This document shows, one piece after another, positions 3,552 to 22,705 of a DNA stretch of 24,381 bases. Position 1 is the stretch's first letter. Every line of letters starts with the position of its first letter. The stretch covers positions 1 through 24,381 of the IMG/VR virus record IMGVR_UViG_3300006805_000155. One strand, written 5' to 3'. Source of the DNA: a virus. Position numbers and translations under genes: made by a program. Under the pieces are notes generated by a model. That model made no database searches. It was not told the DNA's origin and saw only the letters and a list, made by a program, of their open reading frames with translations.

Positions 3552-4148
3552 TTAGACTCCTAGGTTCCAAGTGTGTAGGTGAACCAGAACGTCTTCTCGA
3601 AGATCGTCAGTGCGCCAACCCTTTGGAAATTCCAGATACTCTAATTCAGCTGAGTATTCCTGCTCATACTCAGTCCCGTTACCCTCCGAGGTATCACGGA
3701 CGTTCTCGAACAGGGTATCTACCAGACAGAGGTAGTCAGAAAGACGCATAGGGTCGAAAGCCACATTGCGCGGCAAACTTACCAAGGCGATGTTATTCCG
3801 AGGAGTATGAGCCTGAAACTCAATCACCCCTTCAGCCCAACGGAGGTAGTTGGGGAGACAGAACCACCCCCGACTATCTAGGATGACTTGCTGGGGGTGG
3901 TTCTGGATTCGCTCAATCAGAAAATCAAGCAGTTTGATATGGGGGAAGATGTTTGATTCAGCCCGCTCAGGCCAGCGGTTTGAAATAGAAGCAAGCATTG
4001 AGCAGACTCCTTGGATCGGTACAAGACGGCTGCGGATTGTGTTACAGATGGCAGAATGGCTAGAAGGCGTATTGCCAGCGTCCAGATTGGCACGCAAGTT
4101 GATGAGTTCGGCCAGCAATTTTGCGAGCCCTGTGGTTGGATTGGTCAT
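3552..4148 (-). CDS. Hypothetical protein, 198 aa
   Basis: A 198-aa product. Residues 1-90 are mostly helical (LAKLLAELINLRANLDA...IKLLDFLIERIQNHP). Residues 90-140 look beta-rich (VILDSRGWFCLPNYLRWAEGVIEFQ). The C-terminal part is acidic and aromatic (EYEQEYSAELEYLEFPKGW). GGAG is 7 nt upstream of the ATG. It has no transmembrane segment and no motif that I recognise. It lies 2 nt upstream of the 63-aa gene and 4 nt downstream of the 106-aa gene. Confidence 0.7.
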   Translation of the reverse strand: MTNPTTGLAKLLAELINLRANLDAGNTPSSHSAICNTIRSRLVPIQGVCSMLASISNRWPERAESNIFPHIKLLDFLIERIQNHPQQVILDSRGWFCLPNYLRWAEGVIEFQAHTPRNNIALVSLPRNVAFDPMRLSDYLCLVDTLFENVRDTSEGNGTEYEQEYSAELEYLEFPKGWRTDDLREDVLVHLHTWNLGV

Positions 4149-8180: not shown

Positions 8181-8290
8181 ATTTATTATAAACTTTGACC
8201 GCTCACATTATAATGGTCACCAGAATTTATTATAGTGGTGGTCGGGATTTATTATATTAGCAGTCAGAATTTATTATATAGTGGTGAGGG
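8181..8290. repeat. Five-unit 22-bp iteron array
   Basis: ATTATA occurs at 8185, 8207, 8229, 8251 and 8273, exactly 22 bp apart. Four of the five units carry the longer ATTTATTATA (8181, 8225, 8247, 8269). The second half of each unit is looser, with GTCA, GGTC or GACC elements and often CAGA. A 22-bp phase puts each box on the same DNA face, as in iterons bound by replication initiators or in operator arrays. Confidence 0.75.
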
Positions 8291-8294
8291 CGTT

Positions 8295-8320
8295 ATTAAC
8301 TTTCATTAACTGGTATTAAC
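8295..8320. repeat. Three ATTAAC boxes at 10-bp spacing
   Basis: ATTAAC occurs at 8295, 8305 and 8315, directly after the 22-bp array and in phase with it for the first box. The one-turn spacing suggests a second binding module or an unwinding element. Confidence 0.6.
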
Positions 8321-8811: not shown

Positions 8812-8826
8812 ATTGAGTGAAATTTG

Positions 8827-9558
8827 ATGAAAAATACCCTGCAAGTGACTGAAAACGCTGTAGTTTCTATGACGAGTCTAGAAATCGTTGAATTTATCAA
8901 TTCACGCCGTCCAGAGGGTTCGGCTGAGTTGCGTCATGATAACTTTATGGCGAAAGTACCCCAAGTATTGGGTGAAATAGGTGCCCTAAATTTTAAGGGC
9001 ACCTATTTTGACACTCAAAACAAGGAGAGACCCTGCTACCGATTCCCAAAACGAGAATCCATGTTGATGGCCATGTCTTACGACTACGCCGCCCAAGCTG
9101 CAATCTACGACCGCTGGCAAGAGCTAGAAACCCAAGTCCAGCAACTAGAGTCCAAAAAACTCAAACAACTGGAGGATCGCAATTATCTGCTCATTCACGA
9201 CTTATCGGACAACATCAGCCACATCGCCAGCAGTATGAACGCGATTAAGGCTGCCGAAAAGGAGGTTAAGCTGATCAAGACACGCATGGCCGATTATATC
9301 GACGAGCGCGTGACTGATTTGCGTGAAGTGGCCTATGACTTGCGCGAAGCTGGTGAAATCGGACTTGCTAAGGAGTTAATATCAGTGGTTAGGGCTATGC
9401 TCAGAGACCTGAAAGGTGTCACGAACCCTAAGAATGAGGCACTTACTGCTTGGTGTTTTGTGTCCGAGTCAGGACTTGACCGCTACGCACGAGAGCGTGT
9501 AGCACTTATGGATCGCTACGCACAATTGGAACAACTGGAACAAGTTGAAAATTCCTAA
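8827..9558 (+). CDS. rha: Rha-family phage regulatory protein
   Basis: A 243-aa product. Residues 14-95 match the Rha layout: MTSLEIVEFINSRR, the segment ELRHDNFMAKVPQVLGEIGALNFKGTYFDTQNKERPCYRFPKRE, then LMAMSYDYAAQAAIYDRWQELE. Rha proteins are phage regulators with a presumed DNA-binding N-domain. Residues 100-165 are charged and helical, probably a coiled coil (LEDRNYLL...KAAEKEVKLIKTRMADYIDERV). The usual downstream Ant or KilA-type domain is not evident. I chose ATG 8827 over the adjacent TTG; both have only a weak GAGTG site. A 13-bp perfect palindrome (8975-9008) sits inside the Rha domain coding sequence. Confidence 0.85.
   Translation: MKNTLQVTENAVVSMTSLEIVEFINSRRPEGSAELRHDNFMAKVPQVLGEIGALNFKGTYFDTQNKERPCYRFPKRESMLMAMSYDYAAQAAIYDRWQELETQVQQLESKKLKQLEDRNYLLIHDLSDNISHIASSMNAIKAAEKEVKLIKTRMADYIDERVTDLREVAYDLREAGEIGLAKELISVVRAMLRDLKGVTNPKNEALTAWCFVSESGLDRYARERVALMDRYAQLEQLEQVENS
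8975..9008. repeat. 13-bp inverted repeat inside rha
   Basis: AAATAGGTGCCCT (8975-8987) and AGGGCACCTATTT (8996-9008) flank an 8-nt A/T spacer. It encodes ordinary Rha-domain residues (EIGALNFKGTYF), so it is a symmetry embedded in coding sequence. Confidence 0.65.
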
Positions 9559-10992: not shown

Positions 10993-11039
10993 CACACACA
11001 CGCACGCACACACGCACGCACACACGCACACACGCACGC
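10993..11039. repeat. 47-bp alternating purine-pyrimidine tract
   Basis: An uninterrupted alternation of C with A or G made of CACA and CACG units, flanked by GCGCG-type sequence (10987-10991, 11051-11054). Such tracts favour left-handed Z-DNA under negative supercoiling and are prone to slippage. Confidence 0.75.
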
Positions 11040-12262: not shown

Positions 12263-12268
12263 TGGCGA

Positions 12269-12297
12269 ACAATACAAGGTATTTTCTACCTTGTCAA
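12269..12297 (-). promoter_or_regulatory. Sigma70-type promoter with internal operator
   Basis: Read leftward: TTGACA (12292-12297), exactly 17 bp, TATTGT (12269-12274). The spacer holds the inverted repeat CAAGGTA / TACCTTG (12275-12281 with 12287-12293), positioned so that a bound repressor would block polymerase. It drives the 187-aa gene. Confidence 0.7.
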
Positions 12298-12335
12298 CAC
12301 TTTTTTTATACAAGATAAGAAAAGTGTTATCATTC

Positions 12336-12376
12336 GCTATACCTAAGCAATCAAGACTTGATTGCTTAGGTATAGC
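12336..12376. repeat. 20-bp perfect inverted repeat
   Basis: GCTATACCTAAGCAATCAAG (12336-12355) and its exact inverse complement (12357-12376) are separated by one base. A further AGACT/AGTCT hairpin follows at 12377-12390. It lies just past the stop of the leftward 55-aa gene, so a terminator or processing site is likely, although no long T-run follows it leftward. Confidence 0.65.
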
Positions 12377-12383
12377 AGACTTT

Positions 12384-12551
12384 TTAGTCTGCTACAAAAA
12401 ACAGCTCATGGTAAATCATAACAGGAGCCGACAAACAAGTGACCAACAATGCAAGCGCACCAAAATAGCCAAAATGCAACGCGCTATCTAACATACCAAA
12501 AAACGCTAACAAACACACAATGAACGATAGAATCAAAACCAATGTTTTCAT
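12384..12551 (-). CDS. Small membrane protein, 55 aa
   Basis: A 55-aa product. Residues 2-20 (KTLVLILSFIVCLLAFFGM) and 29-47 (YFGALALLVTCLSAPVMIY) are two hydrophobic helices joined by LDSALHFG. It looks like a two-pass inner-membrane hairpin. A GGGTAAAG element precedes the ATG, and a promoter fits upstream (12641-12668). Its role could be host takeover or exclusion; nothing identifies it further. The first helix could also be read as a signal-type segment. Confidence 0.6.
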   Translation of the reverse strand: MKTLVLILSFIVCLLAFFGMLDSALHFGYFGALALLVTCLSAPVMIYHELFFVAD

Positions 12552-12640
12552 AACTTTACCCTATAGATGCCTTTTGCCAGAATGACTAGGCTTCTTTATG
12601 ACTTGGTAGCATTTTCCGCTTTTTCCTTGTCATGGCAGCC

Positions 12641-12668
12641 ATTCTACAGGATTTATCATGCTTGTCTA
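12641..12668 (-). promoter_or_regulatory. Promoter of the 55-aa membrane gene
   Basis: Read leftward: TAGACA (12663-12668), 16 bp, TAGAAT (12641-12646). It lies about 90 bp upstream of the ATG. Confidence 0.5.
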
Positions 12669-12870
12669 CCTTTTTTTTATACTTTCTACAAAATAAGTGA
12701 TCTTTCTTTTATTGTTATCTTTATGTAGCCAACTATTGACAAGGGTAGGCACGTTTATATAGGATAACGCGCACGCACACCCACATAACACCCCCGCCCG
12801 ATTTATAAAATTTTAGATTCTTACTCAAATACGTCTCATTCTCATTTACCCCCCCCCACTCCCATGCCCT

Positions 12871-12920
12871 CAGCACCCCTGCTCGCGATGCTACAATGCA
12901 GCACCCCTGCTCGCGATGCT
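12871..12920. repeat. Two 22-bp direct repeats at 28-bp period
   Basis: Two identical 22-bp copies (12871-12892 and 12899-12920) starting CAGCACCCCTGCTCGCG. Each includes AGCA-CCCC-TGCT, a small palindrome. Confidence 0.75.
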
Positions 12921-12932
12921 GCGCGACGCGCA

Positions 12933-13080
12933 CAGGACCATTGGTTTTGATAAAAAAATGTCTGGCACATACAGGACCATTGGTTTTGATAAAAAAATGT
13001 CTGGCACATACAGGACCATTGGTCTCACGTACCTCTTGATAAGAATGTCTGGTGTATGCAGGACCATTGGTCTTAATAAA
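12933..13080. repeat. Four direct repeats with CAGGACCATTGGT
   Basis: CAGGACCATTGGT starts at 12933, 12972, 13011 and 13059. The first two 39-bp units are identical over their whole length, including a seven-A run and ATGTCTGGCACAT. The third unit is diverged and the fourth is partial. Unit spacings are 39, 39 and 48 bp. Confidence 0.8.
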
Positions 13081-13110
13081 GGACCTAACCCAAACCCAAA
13101 ACCAAACCCA

Positions 13111-13133
13111 ATAAAAAGGGAGCCTAAGCTCCC
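13111..13133 (-). terminator. Terminator of the primase operon
   Basis: GGGAGC / GCTCCC (13118-13123 with 13128-13133), 4-nt loop, followed leftward by five T (13113-13117). It lies 20 nt past the primase stop codon. Confidence 0.75.
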
Positions 13134-13152
13134 CCCCTCTCTTCCCAACCAC

Positions 13153-15624
13153 CTACTCAAGTATCTTGATGCCCGAATAATAAGTCCGAACATCCGACCC
13201 CTTATGAAGGGGTTTAATCCCAAACTCAGACATAACCTCTTCAAGCATACCTCTAAACGAGGACATATCATGCTGGTTCCGACCACCCACCGCAGCCGTA
13301 AAGAAAGCCTTAAATTGGTACCAAAGTGCCTCTTCCGAGATCTCATGAGCTGGATCAAACTGCAAATACGGATCCTTTTCTAGGAAGTAAAGCACGGGAT
13401 TGGTCGTGTGGGTTAAGCGGTTTACCAACGCCTTATGAGAACTAGGCAATGTATAATCCGCATTATCACACACAAGTGTGGGCAATGCCTTGAGCGCCCA
13501 GGCGAAGACACCCTCACGCTCTTCACGCAGGATATGATCGGCCAGATTAACATCCACCCGTTCATCCGCAATCACCTGCCCAAACTTGAACATGAGCCAA
13601 CGACGTGTAAAACCTTGTGAGGAGTCATCAGTACGCGGCAGGTGGTTGGAGGCAGCCCAGTGAGCGCAAACTGGGGTCATGTTAAATGCCTCTTTGTACA
13701 AGCGTCTGACCATCACCGAGGACCCATCAATCAGACCCTTGAACAAATCTCCCCGAATCCTTTGCTTCTCCGACAACTCTCCCACCACATTGATCAGTTT
13801 GTTATCCAGACTCACCAACATATTCCCATCTTGCAACTGGCTAAAAGAGACTGAAGCTCGAGCCTCAAGTGGAAACAGACCGCCAATAATCTTCAGAAGT
13901 ACAGATTTGCCTGTCTTGGCCTTGCCAATCAGCAGAAAAGCCCTTTGAAATCTGGGTGCATAACCCAGCAGTGTTGCACAAAGCGCCTGCTGAAGCGCAA
14001 TCAGTTTCTCAGAGTAATCAGGGTCATTGCCCCAGCAATCTTCCAAGAATCTGAGGAAGAGGGGACACTGCGCACCCTCGGCATAACGATAAGGTAGGAC
14101 GTAGGTGGCACCAAATTCAGGATCATGATCAACCAGCGTACCATCTCCCAAGACTGCACCGTTGGCCACGTTGATGCAGGGGCGAAAATCTGTACGAATC
14201 CGTCCATTGGCCAAAATCAACATCTCACGCCAAACACCCGTCGAATCTGAGTTACGTTTCATCACTGGACATTCGATATATCGGTTTGAGACAAACTCCA
14301 TCATCTGAGGCTGATCAACCACTTCCCAATGACTCCCTCTCCATTGGTGCAAGATGCCATCCTGACTTCTCAAATCGCCAAATCTCTTCTGGTAACTCAA
14401 TACTGCTCGCGCAACCTGAGTATGTGAATTCAGTTCTAGGATTGAGCCTGACTCGGCAATCTCGACGTTAATGGCCATCGCTCTAAATCGGTTCAGTTCT
14501 TTTTTCAGATCCTTCACACCCAGATTAAGATGCTTGGTTCTACGCAGAATAGTCTCAAGCAAAACCTTTTCTTTCAATGGATCAATGGTGCGAACTGTCG
14601 CCAACTCTTGCAACACCAGTCTCACTGTATCAACCGTAACCTCTCCCCCTTGGTTATCAAGATCTCCAAAGGCTTGTCTTCCCATCTCCTCATAGGTCTT
14701 TTCAGTTTCTACATCAAACATTCCATAAGCTTTAATTTCCTTCTCAGTCAGGTCCTTATCCCAACCAATTGGCAACTTGCATGAGCGAGCCACTAAGTCT
14801 TGCTTGATAAAATTGATTAGATTACTGACATGTTTGTGGAGGTCCATCGGGTCACCCTCCACCTGCTGGGTGAAGCTTGATTCAAGAACCTGCAAGGTTT
14901 CGATTGCTCTCTTGAGCGTAAGGAAACCTCTCACCACATCAATAGCCAATGCACCTGCCCGTGAGGTCATGGCGTTGTCCCGTCCGCCTGCAGGGACAAA
15001 CTCAGTTAATCCACCATATCTTTCTTTGCTCTGCAATTCATAGTTTAGGCTAGTCAAGATTGCCCGAACCATCTCTTCAAAGTTATCCGGTACAGGCAGA
15101 AAGCTTGGTGATTTCATTGCCTGCAACAGATCACAATTGGCCGTATAAATAATTGGTCCACCTGTCTCAGGGTTCGAGTCTGGATGGACTGAGGGTGGAA
15201 GCACCACCTGAAGTTTGTTGTTCAGGAACTCAACCAGAGTCTTGCCATTCTTGTCCTTCAATCGAAAGGCTTTCTTGATATTCGGATTGAACTTATAGGC
15301 CAAGACCATCCCCTTCTTACCTTTCCTATGCCACAAGGAAACGGGTAATAAGTCGATCAATCGCTGAACCATGAATTCGTCTTCAATATCAATGTCCAAC
15401 ACCGATACGCCTGACTTCGGGCCGAGAACTAATCCGATGTTATGATTGTCTGGCAACTCTAACCAGTTTTGCTTCAAAGCGTCAGTCAATTCATGCTCAG
15501 CCCAATCTGACCAACCATCAGGCACAGGAATCTTCGACTTCACGCGAAGGGGAATAACTGGAATGTTCTTTTTCAGATAGGCAGGCGCGGTGATTGCGTA
15601 GATACCTAGGTTGGGTCTATTCAT
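13153..15624 (-). CDS. Primase-polymerase / D5-type SF3 helicase
   Basis: An 823-aa replication protein. Residues 5-185 match the bifunctional primase-polymerase (AEP-type) domain: NIGLVLGPKSGVSVLDIDIED, with D77 and D79 as likely metal ligands, and LPPSVHPDSN near 142-151. Residues 390-540 look like D5_N. The superfamily 3 helicase follows: Walker A GKAKTGKS at 567-574, Walker B-like LINVVGE near 610-616, and the Asn sensor in AASNHLP at about 657-663 with GFTRRW downstream. It would unwind the origin and make primers in one polypeptide. The start overlaps the 168-aa gene by 4 nt (ATGA) and has GGAAG upstream. A strong terminator follows. The protein is full length, with no breaks. Confidence 0.92.
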   Translation of the reverse strand: MNRPNLGIYAITAPAYLKKNIPVIPLRVKSKIPVPDGWSDWAEHELTDALKQNWLELPDNHNIGLVLGPKSGVSVLDIDIEDEFMVQRLIDLLPVSLWHRKGKKGMVLAYKFNPNIKKAFRLKDKNGKTLVEFLNNKLQVVLPPSVHPDSNPETGGPIIYTANCDLLQAMKSPSFLPVPDNFEEMVRAILTSLNYELQSKERYGGLTEFVPAGGRDNAMTSRAGALAIDVVRGFLTLKRAIETLQVLESSFTQQVEGDPMDLHKHVSNLINFIKQDLVARSCKLPIGWDKDLTEKEIKAYGMFDVETEKTYEEMGRQAFGDLDNQGGEVTVDTVRLVLQELATVRTIDPLKEKVLLETILRRTKHLNLGVKDLKKELNRFRAMAINVEIAESGSILELNSHTQVARAVLSYQKRFGDLRSQDGILHQWRGSHWEVVDQPQMMEFVSNRYIECPVMKRNSDSTGVWREMLILANGRIRTDFRPCINVANGAVLGDGTLVDHDPEFGATYVLPYRYAEGAQCPLFLRFLEDCWGNDPDYSEKLIALQQALCATLLGYAPRFQRAFLLIGKAKTGKSVLLKIIGGLFPLEARASVSFSQLQDGNMLVSLDNKLINVVGELSEKQRIRGDLFKGLIDGSSVMVRRLYKEAFNMTPVCAHWAASNHLPRTDDSSQGFTRRWLMFKFGQVIADERVDVNLADHILREEREGVFAWALKALPTLVCDNADYTLPSSHKALVNRLTHTTNPVLYFLEKDPYLQFDPAHEISEEALWYQFKAFFTAAVGGRNQHDMSSFRGMLEEVMSEFGIKPLHKGSDVRTYYSGIKILE

Positions 15625-16127
15625 TTGCTCTTACTTCCTAAATCTTCCAAACGCTTGATGAAATCCTTGGCGACTTCACTGGATTCTGAATGATGCTCGA
15701 TAAACTCTTTGAGCAGTGCTTCAAGGCTAAACACTCTATCTATGTTAGCCAACCGTTCAGAAATCTCCACTCTCTTTTGTAACAATTCGAACAAGAACTT
15801 ACTCGCACTCACCTTAGAGGCTTCGCTAGAACTCTGATTGGAGATTACGCTGCGAATATCTGAGATGGCATTGTCAATCTGCCACATCAGCATATCCTCC
15901 GGGCGATCCCCTGTGGCCGTCAGCTTGACGTTATTAATGGCTCTATCCTTGGTCTCAGAGTTCAACTCTCGCAGACTACGAACTGCCTTGACTATGCCAT
16001 CTTGCAAAAGGGGTGTGTATGGACAATTGGCTGCCGAGACATAAAGCGGGTCTTTAAGTGCCTCACCAATAATTTCCACTGAAGTTTCAAAGTCTTCCAA
16101 AATGATGCGGGGGTAACGGCTTCTCAT
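15621..16127 (-). CDS. Helical hypothetical protein upstream of primase, 168 aa
   Basis: A 168-aa product, almost entirely helical by appearance (ETSVEIIGEALKDP...IVKAVRSLRELNSETKDRAINNVK...SKFLFELLQKRVEISERLANIDRVFSLEALLKEFIEHH). It is coupled to the primase by a 4-nt overlap, suggesting a replication role such as a helicase loader or co-factor. No small terminase subunit is seen elsewhere in the window, and this protein is the immediate divergent neighbour of the large subunit, so a small terminase is a second possibility. No motif decides. The ribosome site is weak (AAGAGA). Confidence 0.65.
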   Translation of the reverse strand: MRSRYPRIILEDFETSVEIIGEALKDPLYVSAANCPYTPLLQDGIVKAVRSLRELNSETKDRAINNVKLTATGDRPEDMLMWQIDNAISDIRSVISNQSSSEASKVSASKFLFELLQKRVEISERLANIDRVFSLEALLKEFIEHHSESSEVAKDFIKRLEDLGSKSK

Positions 16128-16197
16128 GAGCTTATCTCTTGGATGGGTGTCGAGTATCTTAGCTTATTTATGGGGGTTTCTCTGGCTTTCTGTTGTT

Positions 16198-16213
16198 CAG
16201 TTTCGGTAAACTG
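16198..16213. promoter_or_regulatory. Palindrome in divergent intergenic region
   Basis: CAGTTT-CGGT-AAACTG lies between the leftward primase operon and the rightward terminase. A GATAAT box (16218-16223) is just downstream on the right. The location suits an operator controlling late transcription. Confidence 0.4.
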
Positions 16214-16262
16214 ACTCGATAATATCTTGCAGGCTTCTTGCAATCTCTTTTGGAAGTTTTTT

Positions 16263-18464
16263 ATGAATATTCTCGACGATTTTTCCACCCGGATTTCTCA
16301 GTATCTTCAGGAGAAGGCCGATCCAAAACCCTACACTGATTGGCTGCAGGAAAACACAAAACTGGCTGGTCTGCCCTTCTCAGTCTCTAAGTATCCGTTT
16401 CAGCGGCAAATCTTGAACGATATGCACACCAATCTGTGTTGTGTAAAACCTTCCCAAGTTGGTTTGGCCCTCGCCTTAGACACCCCCATCCTAACTGGTC
16501 ACGGTTGGACTACAATGGGCAACTTGAAGGTAGGTCATTTTATACACGAAGGTTCAGGTTCGGGCGAACTGACCGAGGTCACTTACCTATCACCCATCTA
16601 CACAGACCACGAGTGCTTCTCACTGGAGTTCCACGATGGCACTAAGATTGTCGCAGATGCTGGGCATCGCTGGCCAGTGAGTGTAAACGGAAGCAGGGTA
16701 GAGATCAGAACCACCATTGACCTCTACCAAGAGAAGTATCTGTTTGGTTCAAAGATGACTGTAAAGGGGGGTTTGAGTGGTCAGCTATCTTTCACTTTGA
16801 CAGGCATTTTTAAGGTTCCTGCTGTCCCTGTCCGTTGCTTGACAGTTGCGCATCCAAGCCATCTTTTCTTGTGCGGGGCCAGCTTAATCGCCACTCACAA
16901 CACTGAAGTGCAGGTGCGTAAGGCATTGGCCATTGCTGCACGCAACCCGCATCGGACAGTCATGTTTACGCTGCCCACCGAGGACATGCGCAAACGTCTG
17001 TATCAAACACGGGTCGAGAACCTAATCAAGAACACCCCACTGTTCAATCCTGTGGGAGGTAAACCTTCACGCTCTATCGAGATCAGTCAGATACTAGATA
17101 GCTACGTCCTAATGGTACCTGTGACCGAGGCGGCAGCAACCAGTCAGCCTGCCGATGTCGTATTTAATGACGAAGTTGATCTCTCAAACCAATCACTCTT
17201 GGCGCTGTTTAACTCTCGGATGCAGGGTTCCAACTGGCGCATGTCGCAACGCTTTAGTACTCCAACCTACGAGGGCTTTGGCATCTCCGAAGACTTTGCG
17301 CTGTCAGATCAACACCACTATATGTACAAGTGCCACAAGTGCGGACATCACCAGATTCCTGAGTTTAACCGCAAGTTCGTCACTGTACCCAAGCTGCCAG
17401 AGGAATTGAGCGCAGACTATTCTCTGTTCGAGACTGATTGGATCGACAAGTATGGGTTGCAGATGGACGAGACTTTTCTGCACTGCGAGATCTGTAGAAC
17501 ACCCATGAATCTCAAGAACCATAATGGACGGGAGTGGGTGGCCAAGCATCCTAACCGAACGCATCACCGAGGCTATCGGGTCTCACCCTTTTCAGTCAGC
17601 ACACTCCCACCCAGCTATATCTTCAACCAGCTGTTCACCTATCGACGCAATGACAACCTAAAGGGCTGGTACAACACTGTGCTTGGCCTCCCCTACGAGG
17701 GTGGGGATGAGCGATTATCACGCAGGGACATTTTGGCATGTTTTAGCGAAATGATTCACCCAATCGAGCGCGATGACAATTACCATTACTTCCTCGGGGC
17801 TGACATGGGCAACCTGTGTCACATCACGGTGGCTCGAAGCAAAGACGGGGCAGCCTTAGAAGTAGTCTTGATGGAGGTGGTCAGCTCGAACGGCTACGCG
17901 GATCGGTTGATGGCTCTCAAGGAACGCTATCAGATTGATCTGGGTTTCTCTGACCGATTCCCTCTCACAGAGACGGTCAACCGAGTGCGTGAGTTGTCTG
18001 AGAATACTTTCATCCCCCTGCAGTATCAACACAGTAAAGGGGCTGAGAAGTTTCGCTATCATGATGATGAGCTGGGTAACCTGTCACATGCCTCAGCCCA
18101 GAGAACTTGGCACCTCGATCAGGTGGTGACTAAGGTGAGAAACCAGAAGGTGAGCTTTGCTGGTTATGGTGGTCAGAAGGAACTAATCATCGAGCATTTA
18201 CGTGATATGGTTCGTGAAGCCAAGGACGAAGAGGTGCCAGTATGGAAGAAATTGAATGGTAAGGATCACTATTTTCACAGTCTAGGTTACTGCAATCAGG
18301 CGATGATGCAATTCTTCGATGGAAAAAATTCAAGCACTAACAGTAACACTACGTTATACTTCGGTGGAATTGATGTAAAATTTCCTGCCTCTAATGTAAC
18401 GGGGTTATTTGGAAGCATGGGCAACTCAACACGAGGCAGTGGCAATGGCGGGAATCTCTTCTAA
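16263..18464 (+). CDS. terL: Terminase large subunit (GpA type) containing an intein
   Basis: A 733-aa precursor, 588 aa after splicing. It packages DNA into proheads: N-terminal ATPase motor and C-terminal nuclease. The P-loop is the lambda-like variant KPSQVGLTE with Lys62, split by an intein at residues 69-213. Walker B is VVFNDEVD (about 300-306), the coupling motif is STPTYEGFG (about 332-340), four Cys as CHKC and CEIC (357, 360, 408, 411) could bind zinc, and LGADMG (Asp514) begins the nuclease. GGAAG 7 nt upstream supports this ATG over a TTG at 16227. The portal start overlaps its end. Because the intein splits the ATP-binding loop, the unspliced form should be inactive. Confidence 0.93.
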   Translation: MNILDDFSTRISQYLQEKADPKPYTDWLQENTKLAGLPFSVSKYPFQRQILNDMHTNLCCVKPSQVGLALALDTPILTGHGWTTMGNLKVGHFIHEGSGSGELTEVTYLSPIYTDHECFSLEFHDGTKIVADAGHRWPVSVNGSRVEIRTTIDLYQEKYLFGSKMTVKGGLSGQLSFTLTGIFKVPAVPVRCLTVAHPSHLFLCGASLIATHNTEVQVRKALAIAARNPHRTVMFTLPTEDMRKRLYQTRVENLIKNTPLFNPVGGKPSRSIEISQILDSYVLMVPVTEAAATSQPADVVFNDEVDLSNQSLLALFNSRMQGSNWRMSQRFSTPTYEGFGISEDFALSDQHHYMYKCHKCGHHQIPEFNRKFVTVPKLPEELSADYSLFETDWIDKYGLQMDETFLHCEICRTPMNLKNHNGREWVAKHPNRTHHRGYRVSPFSVSTLPPSYIFNQLFTYRRNDNLKGWYNTVLGLPYEGGDERLSRRDILACFSEMIHPIERDDNYHYFLGADMGNLCHITVARSKDGAALEVVLMEVVSSNGYADRLMALKERYQIDLGFSDRFPLTETVNRVRELSENTFIPLQYQHSKGAEKFRYHDDELGNLSHASAQRTWHLDQVVTKVRNQKVSFAGYGGQKELIIEHLRDMVREAKDEEVPVWKKLNGKDHYFHSLGYCNQAMMQFFDGKNSSTNSNTTLYFGGIDVKFPASNVTGLFGSMGNSTRGSGNGGNLF
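16467..16901 (+). other. Class 3-type mini-intein in the terL P-loop
   Basis: 145 residues. It starts ALALDTPILTGHGWTTMGNL, a typical block A except that position 1 is Ala instead of Cys or Ser. Block B has GTKIVADAGHRW with His67 and Trp69. Block F has RCLTV with Cys124. Block G ends ATHN with Thr143, His144 and Asn145. The next residue is Thr. Trp, Cys and Thr at these places are the WCT signature of class 3 inteins, where the block F Cys makes the first branched intermediate. Removing it restores KPSQVGL-TEVQVRK. No LAGLIDADG or HNH endonuclease is present, so it cannot home by itself. Confidence 0.9.
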
Positions 18465-19920
18465 CATCTTTGCAAAAATGGGCGAAGTGCTTTTACCCAA
18501 GGCCCTCCAAGTGGGGGGTAAAGGGCAGAGTCCTGCTTTCGATGCCTCACGGGGCTCCGACCCAGTGCCACGCCCCATCACCAACAGTCACCAGCGTGAC
18601 TTGTTGGCCGAAAGGTCTGGGACAGATGATGATCTGATTCAGACGCTTATGCGCTATGACTCGGACGTGGCTGCAGCAACTCACGCCTATCTGACCGTGG
18701 CCAATACAGAGATGCGGCATCTCTGCTACGATGAGCTGGGGCAAGTTGATCCAGTGGCGCAGCAAACCATCAGTCAGTTCCTCACATCCCTTGGCACCAC
18801 TATGGATTACAGCCAAGGATTTACAATGAACCGTAGTCTTCGGGCACGCAATGAGAAGATGCGCTACATGCTTCTGAAGCGGGGTTCGGTGGCTGGTGAA
18901 TTATTGTATGACCGCAAGCTGGGGACTATTACAGATTTCCTACTACTAGATACAGGCAGTCTTGACTGGAGCCAGAAGGTTAATGGGAAACTAAAGCCAG
19001 CACAACGGGTTGGGCAGGGCGATCCTATTCCTCTGGACTTCGCCACTGTCTATTACTCCTCGTTTCGACAAGACCCGAGCGATCCCTACAGCAAGAGCTT
19101 CTTCATCTCAGTAATCAACACCATCTATGCACGCACGCAGATCATCAACGATCTGTATCGCATCATGAACATCAATGGTTTCCCTCGCATCAAAATAGAA
19201 TTGCTGGAAGAGACCATCCGTAAGCATGTGCCTCAGTCAATCAAGAATAACCCTACCAAAGTGTCTGAGTTCATCAACTCGATTATTAGCGAGACGCAGG
19301 CCAGCTTCCAGAACATTCGCCCAGATCAACCACTGGTGCACACCGACTCTTCGGTGATCACGGTGATGAATGAGCGCAGCTCTGCAATGTCTTTGGACAT
19401 CAGCCCAATCATCAAAGTGCTGGATGCGCAGAACCAATCATCCCTGAAGACAATGGCCACTATTATTGGTCGGGGTGAGTCTGGGGTGAACACAGCTTCC
19501 GTCGAAGCACGGATCTTTGCGTTGTCGGCGGCCGAACTAAACGACCCAGTGGCGGAATTGTGGGAACAGGCCCTCACCTTCGTGCTGCGATTGTCTGGTT
19601 CGCGCTCCCGAGTTGCAGTTCATTTTGCTGAGCCTGAGTTGCGGGCTGAGAGCGAACTAGAGCCAGCTCGCACCCAGAAGCAGGCTCGCCTGCACAAAGA
19701 TTTATCGCTCGGTCTCATTACCGACGAAGAATACCATTTGCAAATGTACAACCGTCTACCCCCCCAAACTGCTCCCACCTTGTCGGGTACAAACTTTCTG
19801 GGTGGAGATGTTGCACAAACTGCAGAAGTTACAAAAGGGCCTGCTGACCAGCCTAATTCGGTTCAGCGTCAAACCACCACTAAGGCTGACAAGTCTGCTG
19901 CCAGCAACGCCAACAAATAG
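18445..19920 (+). CDS. Portal protein
   Basis: A 491-aa product that would form the dodecameric ring at the packaging vertex. The central segment (TVYYSSFRQDPSDPYSKSFFISVINTIYARTQIINDLYRIM) and the later GRGESGVNTASVEARIFALSAAELNDPVAELWEQ match the layout of portal wing and stem regions. Position directly after TerL and before the protease supports this. The N-terminal 50 residues and the C-terminal 60 (Pro-, Thr- and Gln-rich) look disordered. GAGG lies 8 nt before this ATG; the reading frame starts 20 nt inside the end of terL. Confidence 0.85.
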   Translation: MAGISSNIFAKMGEVLLPKALQVGGKGQSPAFDASRGSDPVPRPITNSHQRDLLAERSGTDDDLIQTLMRYDSDVAAATHAYLTVANTEMRHLCYDELGQVDPVAQQTISQFLTSLGTTMDYSQGFTMNRSLRARNEKMRYMLLKRGSVAGELLYDRKLGTITDFLLLDTGSLDWSQKVNGKLKPAQRVGQGDPIPLDFATVYYSSFRQDPSDPYSKSFFISVINTIYARTQIINDLYRIMNINGFPRIKIELLEETIRKHVPQSIKNNPTKVSEFINSIISETQASFQNIRPDQPLVHTDSSVITVMNERSSAMSLDISPIIKVLDAQNQSSLKTMATIIGRGESGVNTASVEARIFALSAAELNDPVAELWEQALTFVLRLSGSRSRVAVHFAEPELRAESELEPARTQKQARLHKDLSLGLITDEEYHLQMYNRLPPQTAPTLSGTNFLGGDVAQTAEVTKGPADQPNSVQRQTTTKADKSAASNANK

Positions 19921-19929
19921 GAGTAGGCC

Positions 19930-21051
19930 ATGTTTCGTTTACCTTTGACTGCCAGTTTGAAGGCTCTATTACAGAACCGAATGGGTAAAGACCAAGAGGA
20001 TAAGATTAGTCTCTATGAGGTGCTGGTCAACAGCACCAAGCCAATCCCGCGCACCTACGGAATGTATCAGGGTGCGCAGATGAAGCTGAGTTATCTGCAA
20101 GAGATGTCCGCAATCTCCAAGGTGCGTCGTATCCCTATCATCCAGAATCACAACCAGTATTCTATGTTACCTGACGGTGTGGTGTTGGCTGCCGAAACTG
20201 TGCTTCTGGAGGACGGCCAAAACTATGGTCTGCACGCCATTGTCGCAATTCCCAAGAACGAGGATGCCGAGAGTTTAGACAATCGGCTTTCACTTGGCAT
20301 TGTAAATCAGGTTTCTTCAGGTAGTAAGCCAAGTGATCTCTATTGCTCTGAGTGTAATTTCCACTACACCAAAGATGAAGATTCGGTCTCATATCTAAAT
20401 CTGCGTGAACACGAAGCGATGCCGATGTGTCCAAATGACCACAAGGTGGGTGTCAATGGTGTGCACCTAAAGCTGGATGGTTTAGCCTATTGGGACGAGA
20501 TAAGCCTAGTAGTTCAAGGAGCAGTTACCGATGCACGGGTGCTGAGTGAAAATGAATGGGTTTTAAATCGAAAATTTGAGTTGCAACAGTTGGCAGCAAG
20601 TGCCAATACTGATAAACTCCGTCTAGTTACATATGAAGAACAGAAAGATGGCAGATTTGCTGTTGACCCTGTTCCAAATTTAGAACCCAAGGGGGAAGAA
20701 ATGAGCGGTATCACTCTCGCAACTGCAGACTACGAGCAGTTGGTCTTATCCAAGGTCAAGGCTGCCGAGGTCGATGGCCTAAAGCTGCAGCTTCAAACTG
20801 CCGCGACTGCTCTTGCAACTGCTCAGACTGAAAAGGATGCCGCCATTGCAAGCAAAACAGAACTTGAAAACGCAAAACTAGCTGCCGAGTCTCAAGTTGA
20901 GGGTTTAAACTCTCAAGTGATCGCTCTGACTGCTCAAGTTGCTGCGTTGAAAGCTCCAGAAGGCGGTGCTGGTACAGACCCAACAACCCAAGAGGCTCCT
21001 GCCGCAGAATTCTCTGCTGCTGATGCTGCCATGTTTAAAGTCAAACGGTAA
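19930..21051 (+). CDS. Head maturation protease with scaffold-like C-terminus
   Basis: A 373-aa product. Residues 25-205 fit an HK97-type prohead protease: the likely catalytic His74 in IIQNHNQY and Ser192 in DEISLVVQGAVTDARV. Between them CSEC (139, 142) and CPNDH (Cys167, His171) could form a zinc site, an unusual insertion. Residues 258-373 are Ala/Gln/Glu-rich coiled coil (LQTAATALATAQTEKDAAIA...LNSQVIALTAQVAALKA), typical of a scaffolding protein. A GGGGGAAGAA site precedes Met258, so the scaffold may also be made alone, as lambda Nu3 is from within C. The protein would cleave scaffold during head maturation. Confidence 0.8.
   Translation: MFRLPLTASLKALLQNRMGKDQEDKISLYEVLVNSTKPIPRTYGMYQGAQMKLSYLQEMSAISKVRRIPIIQNHNQYSMLPDGVVLAAETVLLEDGQNYGLHAIVAIPKNEDAESLDNRLSLGIVNQVSSGSKPSDLYCSECNFHYTKDEDSVSYLNLREHEAMPMCPNDHKVGVNGVHLKLDGLAYWDEISLVVQGAVTDARVLSENEWVLNRKFELQQLAASANTDKLRLVTYEEQKDGRFAVDPVPNLEPKGEEMSGITLATADYEQLVLSKVKAAEVDGLKLQLQTAATALATAQTEKDAAIASKTELENAKLAAESQVEGLNSQVIALTAQVAALKAPEGGAGTDPTTQEAPAAEFSAADAAMFKVKR
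20701..21051 (+). CDS. Possible nested scaffolding protein, 116 aa
   Basis: An in-frame internal start at Met258 of the protease gene. The sequence AAGGGGGAAGAA ends directly before the ATG, the strongest type of ribosome site seen in this module. The product would be a mostly helical coiled coil (KAAEVDGLKLQLQ...KTELENAKLAAES) ending FSAADAAMFKVKR. In lambda and several other phages the scaffold is produced this way from inside the protease gene. It is inferred here from sequence layout only. Confidence 0.5.
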   Translation: MSGITLATADYEQLVLSKVKAAEVDGLKLQLQTAATALATAQTEKDAAIASKTELENAKLAAESQVEGLNSQVIALTAQVAALKAPEGGAGTDPTTQEAPAAEFSAADAAMFKVKR

Positions 21052-21063
21052 GGAGCCTCTATC

Positions 21064-21486
21064 ATGGCGATGACTAGCAACGTAACACTCCGTGGTACCT
21101 CACTACATGAAGGTCGTTTTACCTTCAATCTGGTACACACTTTGGCCGCAGGTGTAAGCACTGACACTCTGATGGGTTTGGCAGTATCAATCGACACCAC
21201 TGCGAACAACGCTGTTCATTTGGCGGGTAATGGTGAAGAACTGATCGGCGCGATTGTGATTGCCGAGCAAGATATGCAAGGCAACTTGGTCTGCACCGTG
21301 GATACCCTCGGGGGTATCGAGATGCAAGTTTTGGCTGCTGACCCAGCAACACGCGGCACAACTCCAGTTGGCGCGGGTGCAGGTAAGATTAAAGCAGGCG
21401 CAAGCTTGACCGACAAACGTGTTTGGATTTGTTCAAACGCAGGGCTGACCTCGGCTGCCCGTACTGCCACCGTCATGTTCCTGTAA
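21064..21486 (+). CDS. Putative capsid decoration / cement protein
   Basis: A 140-aa product beginning MAMTSNVTLRGTSLHEGRFT. It is small, Ala/Gly/Thr-rich and beta-strand-rich, with GLAVSIDTTANNAVHLAGNGEELIGAIVI and ADPATRGTTPVGAGAGKIKAG. This composition, and the place between protease/scaffold and the major capsid gene, match head decoration proteins such as lambda gpD or DUF2190-like cement proteins. AAGGAG precedes the ATG. It would bind capsid trimers and stabilise the expanded head. Family membership is inferred from context. Confidence 0.65.
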   Translation: MAMTSNVTLRGTSLHEGRFTFNLVHTLAAGVSTDTLMGLAVSIDTTANNAVHLAGNGEELIGAIVIAEQDMQGNLVCTVDTLGGIEMQVLAADPATRGTTPVGAGAGKIKAGASLTDKRVWICSNAGLTSAARTATVMFL

Positions 21487-21496
21487 GGAGAGAACA

Positions 21497-22705
21497 ATGA
21501 AACCACAAGATTTGAAACTGGGCTTTTTCAAAGCAGGTCAGAAATTCTCCCCCGAGATGGTTCTGGCCAAGTTGCAAGCTGAGACCCCAGAAGAGCAATT
21601 TGCCAACGCCTCAATGCTGCTGCGTGATGCTGCAGAATCAGGCTTGAGCTTGGGCGCTCTGCTGGATCGTCATGTAGACTCTACCCATAAAGACCTGGGT
21701 GGTAAGTTTAACGGTCTGCAGCTGAGCGGTCTTGAGTCGGTATTTGCCTTGAACGGCACCCCGCTGACCAAGAACACCGAAGAAGCCTCGGCACGCCTAG
21801 CTGCCACTGGCGACATGTTCACCACTGGTGGTATGAAGGTACTGTTACCGCTTCTAATCGACAACCTAACCCGCGAAGTTCAGAACGAACCTCTGCTGGA
21901 GCGTGTTGAAGATCTGGTTGCTAACACTCGTCAGACTGCGGGCAACGAAATGATCACCGAAATCATCCTTGATAAGGATACTGAGGACTCATACAGCTCG
22001 TTCCGCATCAGCGAAGGTGGCAAAATCCCAGTTCGTAAATTGAAGGCCACCAACCAAGGTGTGAAGTTCTTCAAGATCGGTTCTGGTATTGAGATGACTT
22101 ATGAGGTTGCTCGCCGTGTCGGTCCGCAAGCGATGATTCTGATGGCCAACCGTCAGTCTTTTGAGCGCACTCAGACCGAAGCACGTTTGGCCGTGAAAAC
22201 CTTGATTGAAGGTGATGGCGTTCACCCAGCAGCACCAGTCATTACTCTACAGAGCCTTGACACCTTGGCAACTGGCAAGCTTCGTAACCGTGCTGAAGGC
22301 TTCCTGAAGTGGTTGATGGCCGCTGCCAAAGCAGGTCGTCCAATCGACACGCTGGTAGTAAGCCACAGCACTTGGTTTGAACTGACTGCTCTGTTCCCAA
22401 TCCAAAACACTGCTAACGTTCCTAGCGTTGGTTTGGGTGTTGGTAACACCTTCGGCGCAAACTTCAGCGTAGCAAACGGTATGCGTATGGGTTTCACCAT
22501 CGTGCTTTCAAGCGAGATGGAAGAGAACCGCATCCTTGGCTATCGCAAGCCTGAAACACTTGAGCGTCTGATCGAAACCGGTTCACAGATTAGCGAATCT
22601 GAAACCGCAATTCGCAACCAGAGTGTGCTTGTGACTAACACCGTGAACAGTGGCTTTGCTATGCACTATCACCAGTCGCGTGAAGTGTTGTCTTGGGTGA
22701 ACTAA
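21497..22705 (+). CDS. Major capsid protein (HK97 fold)
   Basis: A 402-aa product. The N-terminal 85 residues are helical and may be a delta domain cleaved on maturation (MVLAKLQAETPEEQFANASMLL). Then come E-loop-like and spine-helix-like parts: VEDLVANTRQTAGNEMITEIILD, MTYEVARRVGPQAMILMANRQSFERTQTEARLAVKTL, and an A-domain-like DTLVVSHSTWFELT. GGAG precedes the ATG. It has more regular, GC-richer codons than the left half, as expected for an abundant protein. A strong terminator follows at 22723-22751. The identity is supported by position and overall pattern. Confidence 0.85.
   Translation: MKPQDLKLGFFKAGQKFSPEMVLAKLQAETPEEQFANASMLLRDAAESGLSLGALLDRHVDSTHKDLGGKFNGLQLSGLESVFALNGTPLTKNTEEASARLAATGDMFTTGGMKVLLPLLIDNLTREVQNEPLLERVEDLVANTRQTAGNEMITEIILDKDTEDSYSSFRISEGGKIPVRKLKATNQGVKFFKIGSGIEMTYEVARRVGPQAMILMANRQSFERTQTEARLAVKTLIEGDGVHPAAPVITLQSLDTLATGKLRNRAEGFLKWLMAAAKAGRPIDTLVVSHSTWFELTALFPIQNTANVPSVGLGVGNTFGANFSVANGMRMGFTIVLSSEMEENRILGYRKPETLERLIETGSQISESETAIRNQSVLVTNTVNSGFAMHYHQSREVLSWVN

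Follow-up and report, generated by a model that had tools for sequence, protein, structure and literature searches.

The DNA analysed here (the window) is the 24,381-base virus record IMGVR_UViG_3300006805_000155, in which the gene for a terminase large subunit (terL) is interrupted in frame within the ATP-binding loop of its product (Table 1). Positions 12263-22461 of the window recur with 100% identity in a 67,569-base IMG/VR contig (the 67.6 kb twin). Because the insert is present in both contigs, it cannot be put down to faulty assembly of a single contig; this further copy of the window's intein, the only one seen, comes from an identical phage. A possible ribosome site, GGAAG, is located 5′ of the terL ATG. 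The gene product is matched by PHROG 675 (terminase large subunit; E 1e-98) and, over precursor residues 228-416, by Pfam GpA_ATPase (PF05876; E 5e-14), and both flanking sequences (exteins) align throughout with TerL homologues, which places the protein among the GpA-like terminase large subunits. Its identity to TerL from Acinetobacter, Achromobacter, Caulobacter and Pseudoalteromonas phages is at most 43%. The gene order, in which a divergent primase gene and a small gene are followed by terL and the portal gene, is common to phage EAb13 and JWF-like phages: the portal gene likewise lies directly downstream of terL in EAb13, and the primase gene is placed as in the window in EAb13, JWF, Seuss and Lumi.

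Several repeats are scattered over the window. Immediately 3′ of the primase gene, the intergenic segment 12932-13095 contains 39-bp direct repeats, with 2.4 perfect copies of ACAGGACCATTGGTTTTGATAAAAAAATGTCTGGCACAT accompanied by a diverged GCAGGACCATTGGT unit, and a short tandem repeat of CACACACGCACG is found at 10995-11039. An antirepressor-like gene (PHROG 63; E 7e-17) occupies 8824-9558. A+T-rich, imperfect 22-bp tandem repeats at 8207-8279 stand just before position 8298, where by offset the identical 67.6 kb contig begins, and are possibly the point of an assembly break.

Table 1. Features of the terL locus in the window, and inteins found at the same residue of TerL relatives (positions in the latter refer to their own contigs).
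Feature	Position	Strand	Description	Basis
terL	16263..18464	+	terminase large subunit precursor, 733 aa; ATG at 16263	PHROG 675, TerL homologues
N-extein	16263..16466	+	68 aa; ends CVKPSQVGL (non-classical Walker A, stops before Thr)	alignment, seven intein-free TerL
Putative class 3 mini-intein	16467..16901	+	145 aa, precursor residues 69-213	alignments, structural matches
Cys50 codon	16614..16616	+	aligned with Msm DnaBi1 Cys48	alignments; invariant in eight same-site inteins
Block B core	16656..16673	+	D-A-G-H-R-W: Asp64, His67 (B:10), Trp69 (B:12)	alignment; D64/H67/W69 invariant at site
Cys124 (block F:4)	16836..16838	+	predicted first nucleophile	aligns with Msm DnaBi1 Cys118, Mch DnaB1 Cys124 (PMC6195587, PMC7664689)
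Block G	16893..16901	+	Thr143 (G:5), His144 (penultimate), Asn145 (terminal, for cyclisation)	alignment
+1 Thr of C-extein (TEVQVRK)	16902..16904	+	predicted second branch-point nucleophile; mature Walker A Thr	alignment
C-extein	16902..18461	+	520 aa; remaining ATPase domain and nuclease half	Pfam, alignment
Portal protein gene	18409..19920	+	directly 3′ of terL	PHROG 3753, E 2e-87
P4-family primase gene	13153..15624	-	divergent from terL	TIGR01613 E 5e-33; PHROG 1156
Same-site intein, window twin			145 aa, mini	
Same-site intein, L032	3557-4000		148 aa, mini	
Same-site intein, L018 (=L005)			364 aa, LAGLIDADG_3	
Same-site intein, L024			366 aa, LAGLIDADG_3	
Same-site intein, L035	1-897		at least 299 aa, ends at contig end, LAGLIDADG_3	
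Same-site intein, L046			373 aa, LAGLIDADG_3	
Same-site intein, L065			372 aa, LAGLIDADG_3	
Same-site intein, L067			344 aa, LAGLIDADG_3	
Same-site intein, L069 (copy: L071)			403 aa, LAGLIDADG_3	

Position of the insert and its class 3 residues

The insert (435 nt, 145 codons) is in frame, free of stop codons and close to terL in base composition, and TerL without it comprises 588 aa. Alignment with seven intein-free TerL proteins of isolated phages (EAb13, JWF, Achromobacter 2-1, KB12-38, Seuss, Lumi and PMBT3) leaves a single clean gap exactly at the insert, a comparison that the first-pass annotation had called for. The junction in most of these proteins reads KPSQ[V/I]G[L/M]-[T/S]E; the joined sequence of the window is KPSQVGL-TEVQ and that of EAb13 KPSQIGL-TEVQ, and the ligated junction peptide of mature TerL is predicted to be CVKPSQVGLTEVQVR. 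An insert of 145 residues between Leu and Thr of KPSQVGL-TE, leaving a product of about 588 aa, is what the first-pass annotation had described, and the open reading frame and the alignment agree with it exactly. Its placement of the insert in the P-loop also stands, with one refinement: KPSQVGL-TE is a non-classical terminase form with Lys at the start of the motif, and Leu, not the classical Lys, precedes the splice point, so that the insertion point precedes the Walker A Thr but does not fall between 'GK' and T. The motif-initial Lys is presumably the functional one, as in phage lambda terminase. Deviant Walker A motifs in terminases were treated by Mitchell and Rao (2004), as cited in PMC5727402.

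In phmmer comparisons with solved structures, the insert matches Msm DnaBi1 (6bs8; E 5.8e-25, residues 1-145) and, end to end, Mch DnaB1 (6rix, E 5.4e-22; 6riy, E 2.6e-21); the gp41-1 inteins follow as far weaker matches. The class 3 signature was defined by Tori and Perler as Trp at B:12, Cys at F:4, Thr at G:5 and Ser or Thr at +1 (PMC5222942). All of these are present here: Trp69 is aligned with Trp67 of 6bs8, the +1 residue is Thr, position 1 is Ala and hence lacks a Cys, Ser or Thr nucleophile, and Asp64-x-x-His67 replaces the TxxH of class 1, as in Msm DnaBi1. None of 200,000 shuffles of the insert gave even a loose HxW...C...THN spacing. The class 3 call of the first-pass annotation is therefore upheld by full-length matches and a complete signature, and the residues that it named (Ala1, Trp69, Cys124, Thr143, His144, Asn145 and the +1 Thr) are all where it put them.

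An AlphaFold model built from same-site relatives is of moderate confidence (pLDDT 76, pTM 0.63); its best structural matches are inteins (6rix, Z 8.3, rmsd 4.5 over 119 residues; 6bs8, Z 7.8), and together with the sequence match to 6bs8 it points to a HINT (Hedgehog/intein) fold. Between blocks B and F, at about residues 75-118, the sequence diverges and the model is in part of low confidence; as a whole, the model adds little to the sequence evidence. Pfam and NCBIfam intein models gave no match above their cut-offs on the window's insert, and automatic annotation would therefore miss this intein. All available sequence tests support its assignment to the class 3 mini-inteins, with the ATP loop of TerL as its site.

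Alleles at the same site

The insertion is precise, in frame and within a conserved motif, and the site is empty in most relatives. IMG/VR was searched with the C-extein alignment, and the best 80 of 344 relatives were retained; among these 80, the splice point is empty in 69, lies off the contig in one and carries an insert at the identical residue in ten. The ten loci represent nine distinct cases, the window (as its twin) included. Seven of the nine match LAGLIDADG_3 above the cut-off, and the two mini-inteins, those of the window and L032, do not. The inteins of L018 (=L005), L024, L046, L065, L067, L069 and L032 share with the window the insertion point KxSQxG[LM]-TE and the class 3 residues, with 50-57% identity to its intein in the splicing domain; unlike the window's, all of them except that of L032 carry LAGLIDADG_3 and are 344-403 aa long. 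THN before Thr-Glu and the block F Cys occur in every same-site intein, and Asp64, His67, Trp69 and Cys50 are kept in all eight that have a complete N-part. Conservation of Cys and Asn in related TerL inserts, on which the first-pass annotation had staked its reading, thus extends to all of them and favours that reading. The only class 3 residue to vary among the eight is position 1, which is Ser in one: the intein at L005:259-1350 starts with Ser (SISLDTP) yet has the Trp-Cys-Thr set.

On a tree of the exteins alone, the presence and absence of the intein require at least eight changes, without clear clustering. The TerLs nearest to the window's, L016 and L017, are empty, and L024 and L067 adjoin empty near relatives. 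The mini-intein locus L032 and the endonuclease-bearing L035 have 99.6% DNA identity along a 5.4-kb stretch that takes in the final 78 nt of the intein, and they diverge abruptly upstream of this shared 3′ end; their sister on the tree, L031, is empty (site near 4000). The scattered presence is the pattern of a homing cycle in which an intein is gained, its endonuclease decays and the intein is lost (model in PMC1654191), plus recombination between alleles. Because the mini-inteins of the window and L032 sit far apart on the TerL tree, they are likely to have arisen by independent endonuclease losses; less probably, both may go back to a shared ancestral mini-intein that moved. A splicing-domain tree (106 columns) names no nearest endonuclease-bearing parent for the window's mini-intein.

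Neither LAGLIDADG_3 nor Hom_end matches the 145-aa insert, and the full-length same-site inteins do match. The LAGLIDADG_3, HNH, HNH_3 and GIY-YIG models, applied to find a separate endonuclease gene that could act in trans, gave no match for any of these four families in either the window or the 67.6 kb twin, two records that together may not span the whole genome. The earlier observation that no endonuclease is present is thus correct for the intein and holds for these four families in both contigs. The conclusion drawn from it, that the element is fixed or lost by chance, is right in that the data fit a mini-intein that no longer homes by itself, but is too strong in view of the endonuclease carriers at the same site and of the 3′ end common to L032 and L035, which means that recombination between alleles can also move the intein. 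The mini-intein can travel with recombining terL DNA, and it is lost only if it is deleted precisely or an empty allele takes its place. A single P-loop position in one phage TerL family that is empty, occupied by an endonuclease-bearing class 3 intein or occupied by a mini-intein is a tidy natural experiment; the near-isogenic L032 and L035, a natural pair in which to study endonuclease loss, together with the empty L031 cover the three homing-cycle states within one small group of phages.

Splicing and alternative readings

After translation, Cys124, aided by His67, would attack the Leu68-Ala69 bond at the N-junction of the precursor, leaving a branched thioester at Cys124 from which the acyl group would then move to the +1 Thr. 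Asn145 would cyclise and the extein halves would be joined as KPSQVGL-TE, so that the ATP-binding loop of the 588-aa terminase is restored. The window's intein is most likely the relict of a homing intein whose endonuclease was lost, because its same-site relatives carry a LAGLIDADG endonuclease that it lacks, and the mini-intein would persist because any phage bearing it must keep it spliceable. A probability of about 0.95 is assigned to this explanation as a whole, namely a class 3 mini-intein that splices through Cys124 and descends from a homing intein. The unspliced TerL is likely to be inert and would probably fail to hydrolyse ATP, because it has the insert between the Walker A Lys and Thr and because, as cited in PMC6195587, the ATPase function of P. 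horikoshii RadA is disrupted by an intein in its P-loop.

That packaging is gated by splicing, as was first proposed, can only be inferred. Splicing that is slow or redox-controlled through a Cys50-Cys124 disulfide, such that packaging starts only late or in a reducing environment and the mini-intein is retained for this role, is unlikely, although it has a precedent in Msm DnaBi1, itself a class 3 mini-intein of a P-loop, which H2O2 inhibits reversibly through an inhibitory disulfide between Cys48 and the catalytic Cys118 (PMC6195587). The equivalent of Cys48, Cys50, is invariant at the TerL site, and a gating role has been suggested as a hypothesis for the TerL inteins of cyanophage Mic1 (PMC7156551). 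However, fast splicing in a reporter was seen for five TerL-type inteins of mycobacteriophages (PMC5050341), which counts against a gate by default, and 69 of the best 80 of 344 TerL relatives carry no intein at the site. Moreover, every Cys48 mutant of Msm DnaBi1 that was tested lost splicing (PMC6195587), and conservation of Cys50 may therefore serve the splicing reaction and not sensing. Doubtful still further is the narrower proposition that the mini-intein is retained as a redox or timing switch in which the Cys50-Cys124 pair would hold TerL unspliced until conditions are reducing or packaging is due; if Cys50 and its partner did sense the redox state, they would constitute a testable packaging switch.

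It is very improbable that the insert is a decayed intein or an unspliced insertion domain, with a TerL that either works with it or is dead. One linker of low confidence in the AlphaFold model would suit such decay, but all catalytic residues are kept, the frame is open, the remainder of TerL and the flanking portal, capsid and primase genes are intact, and the insert splits the Walker A motif. The least probable alternative, with hardly any weight, is that a class 1 or class 2 intein has been misread: Ala at position 1 alone would also fit class 2, but it is accompanied by Trp B:12, Cys F:4, Thr G:5 and the +1 Thr, Asp replaces Thr in the block B TxxH, and the best matches are class 3 structures.

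Comparison with known class 3 inteins

A search with the intein alignment gave 471 related viral loci. The C-terminal end was placed by script in 72 of the best 80 of these 471, and 19 of the 72 are mini-inteins (<220 aa), a count that includes near-identical contigs, with host proteins judged by their flanks. At most of the loci measured among these best 80, the intein lies directly before the Ser or Thr of a Walker A-like motif, such as SRQxGK, RKNGK, KSARVGY or KPSQVGL. Class 3 inteins are thus common in the Walker A loops of terminase-like proteins, and in phages they show a strong preference for the position just ahead of the Walker A Ser/Thr. Two TerL genes (L006:917-4387 and L007:3374-7162) contain two inserts, the first being an endonuclease-bearing class 3 intein at the P-loop GK-S; the second, downstream, is intein-like (CMTAETRVL... 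or CLTAETRVL...VVSHN-T) and looks like class 1. At L136:3001-3423 and L140:3001-3480, class 3 mini-inteins in terminase-like P-loops end in PTSN, with Ser for the penultimate His. Natural split class 3 inteins were considered at three loci that lacked a clean C-terminal end, and rejected: L136 and L140, with their PTSN for PTHN, proved to be complete mini-inteins, and the sequence of L167 stops at a contig end.

The window's intein is a good but ordinary example, because class 3 inteins at the TerL P-loop are already known. Mycobacteriophages have been described with TerL inteins of class 3, and also with TerL inteins in the P-loop, at the TerL1-a/b sites (PMC5050341); P-loop class 3 inteins can be read from the TerL sequences of Bruin, RaK2 and RcDurkin. 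Mycobacteriophage Bruin and its relatives share class 3 with the window, the Bruin intein being at the TerL P-loop GK-T; the TerL intein of Gordonia phage JonJames is also of class 3, but unlike that of the window it lies outside the P-loop. The inteins of Bruin with its relatives and of JonJames differ from that of the window in their length (331-337 aa), their endonuclease-like middle part and their terminase families. The TerL intein of Klebsiella phage RaK2 is a class 3 intein at the P-loop GK-T, as the window's is in the P-loop, but has 342 aa with a LAGLIDADG endonuclease (PMC5259590) and belongs to a T4-type terminase. The closest counterparts are Msm DnaBi1 (6bs8) and Mch DnaB1 (6rix, 6riy), which align with the window's intein over the full length, with the same WCT and DxxH residues, an equivalent of Cys48/Cys50 and no endonuclease. 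Msm DnaBi1 likewise interrupts a P-loop, its +1 residue being the Ser that follows the insertion point (PMC6195587). The host protein of these two inteins is the mycobacterial replicative helicase and not a terminase, and their splicing domains are 44-47% identical to that of the window.
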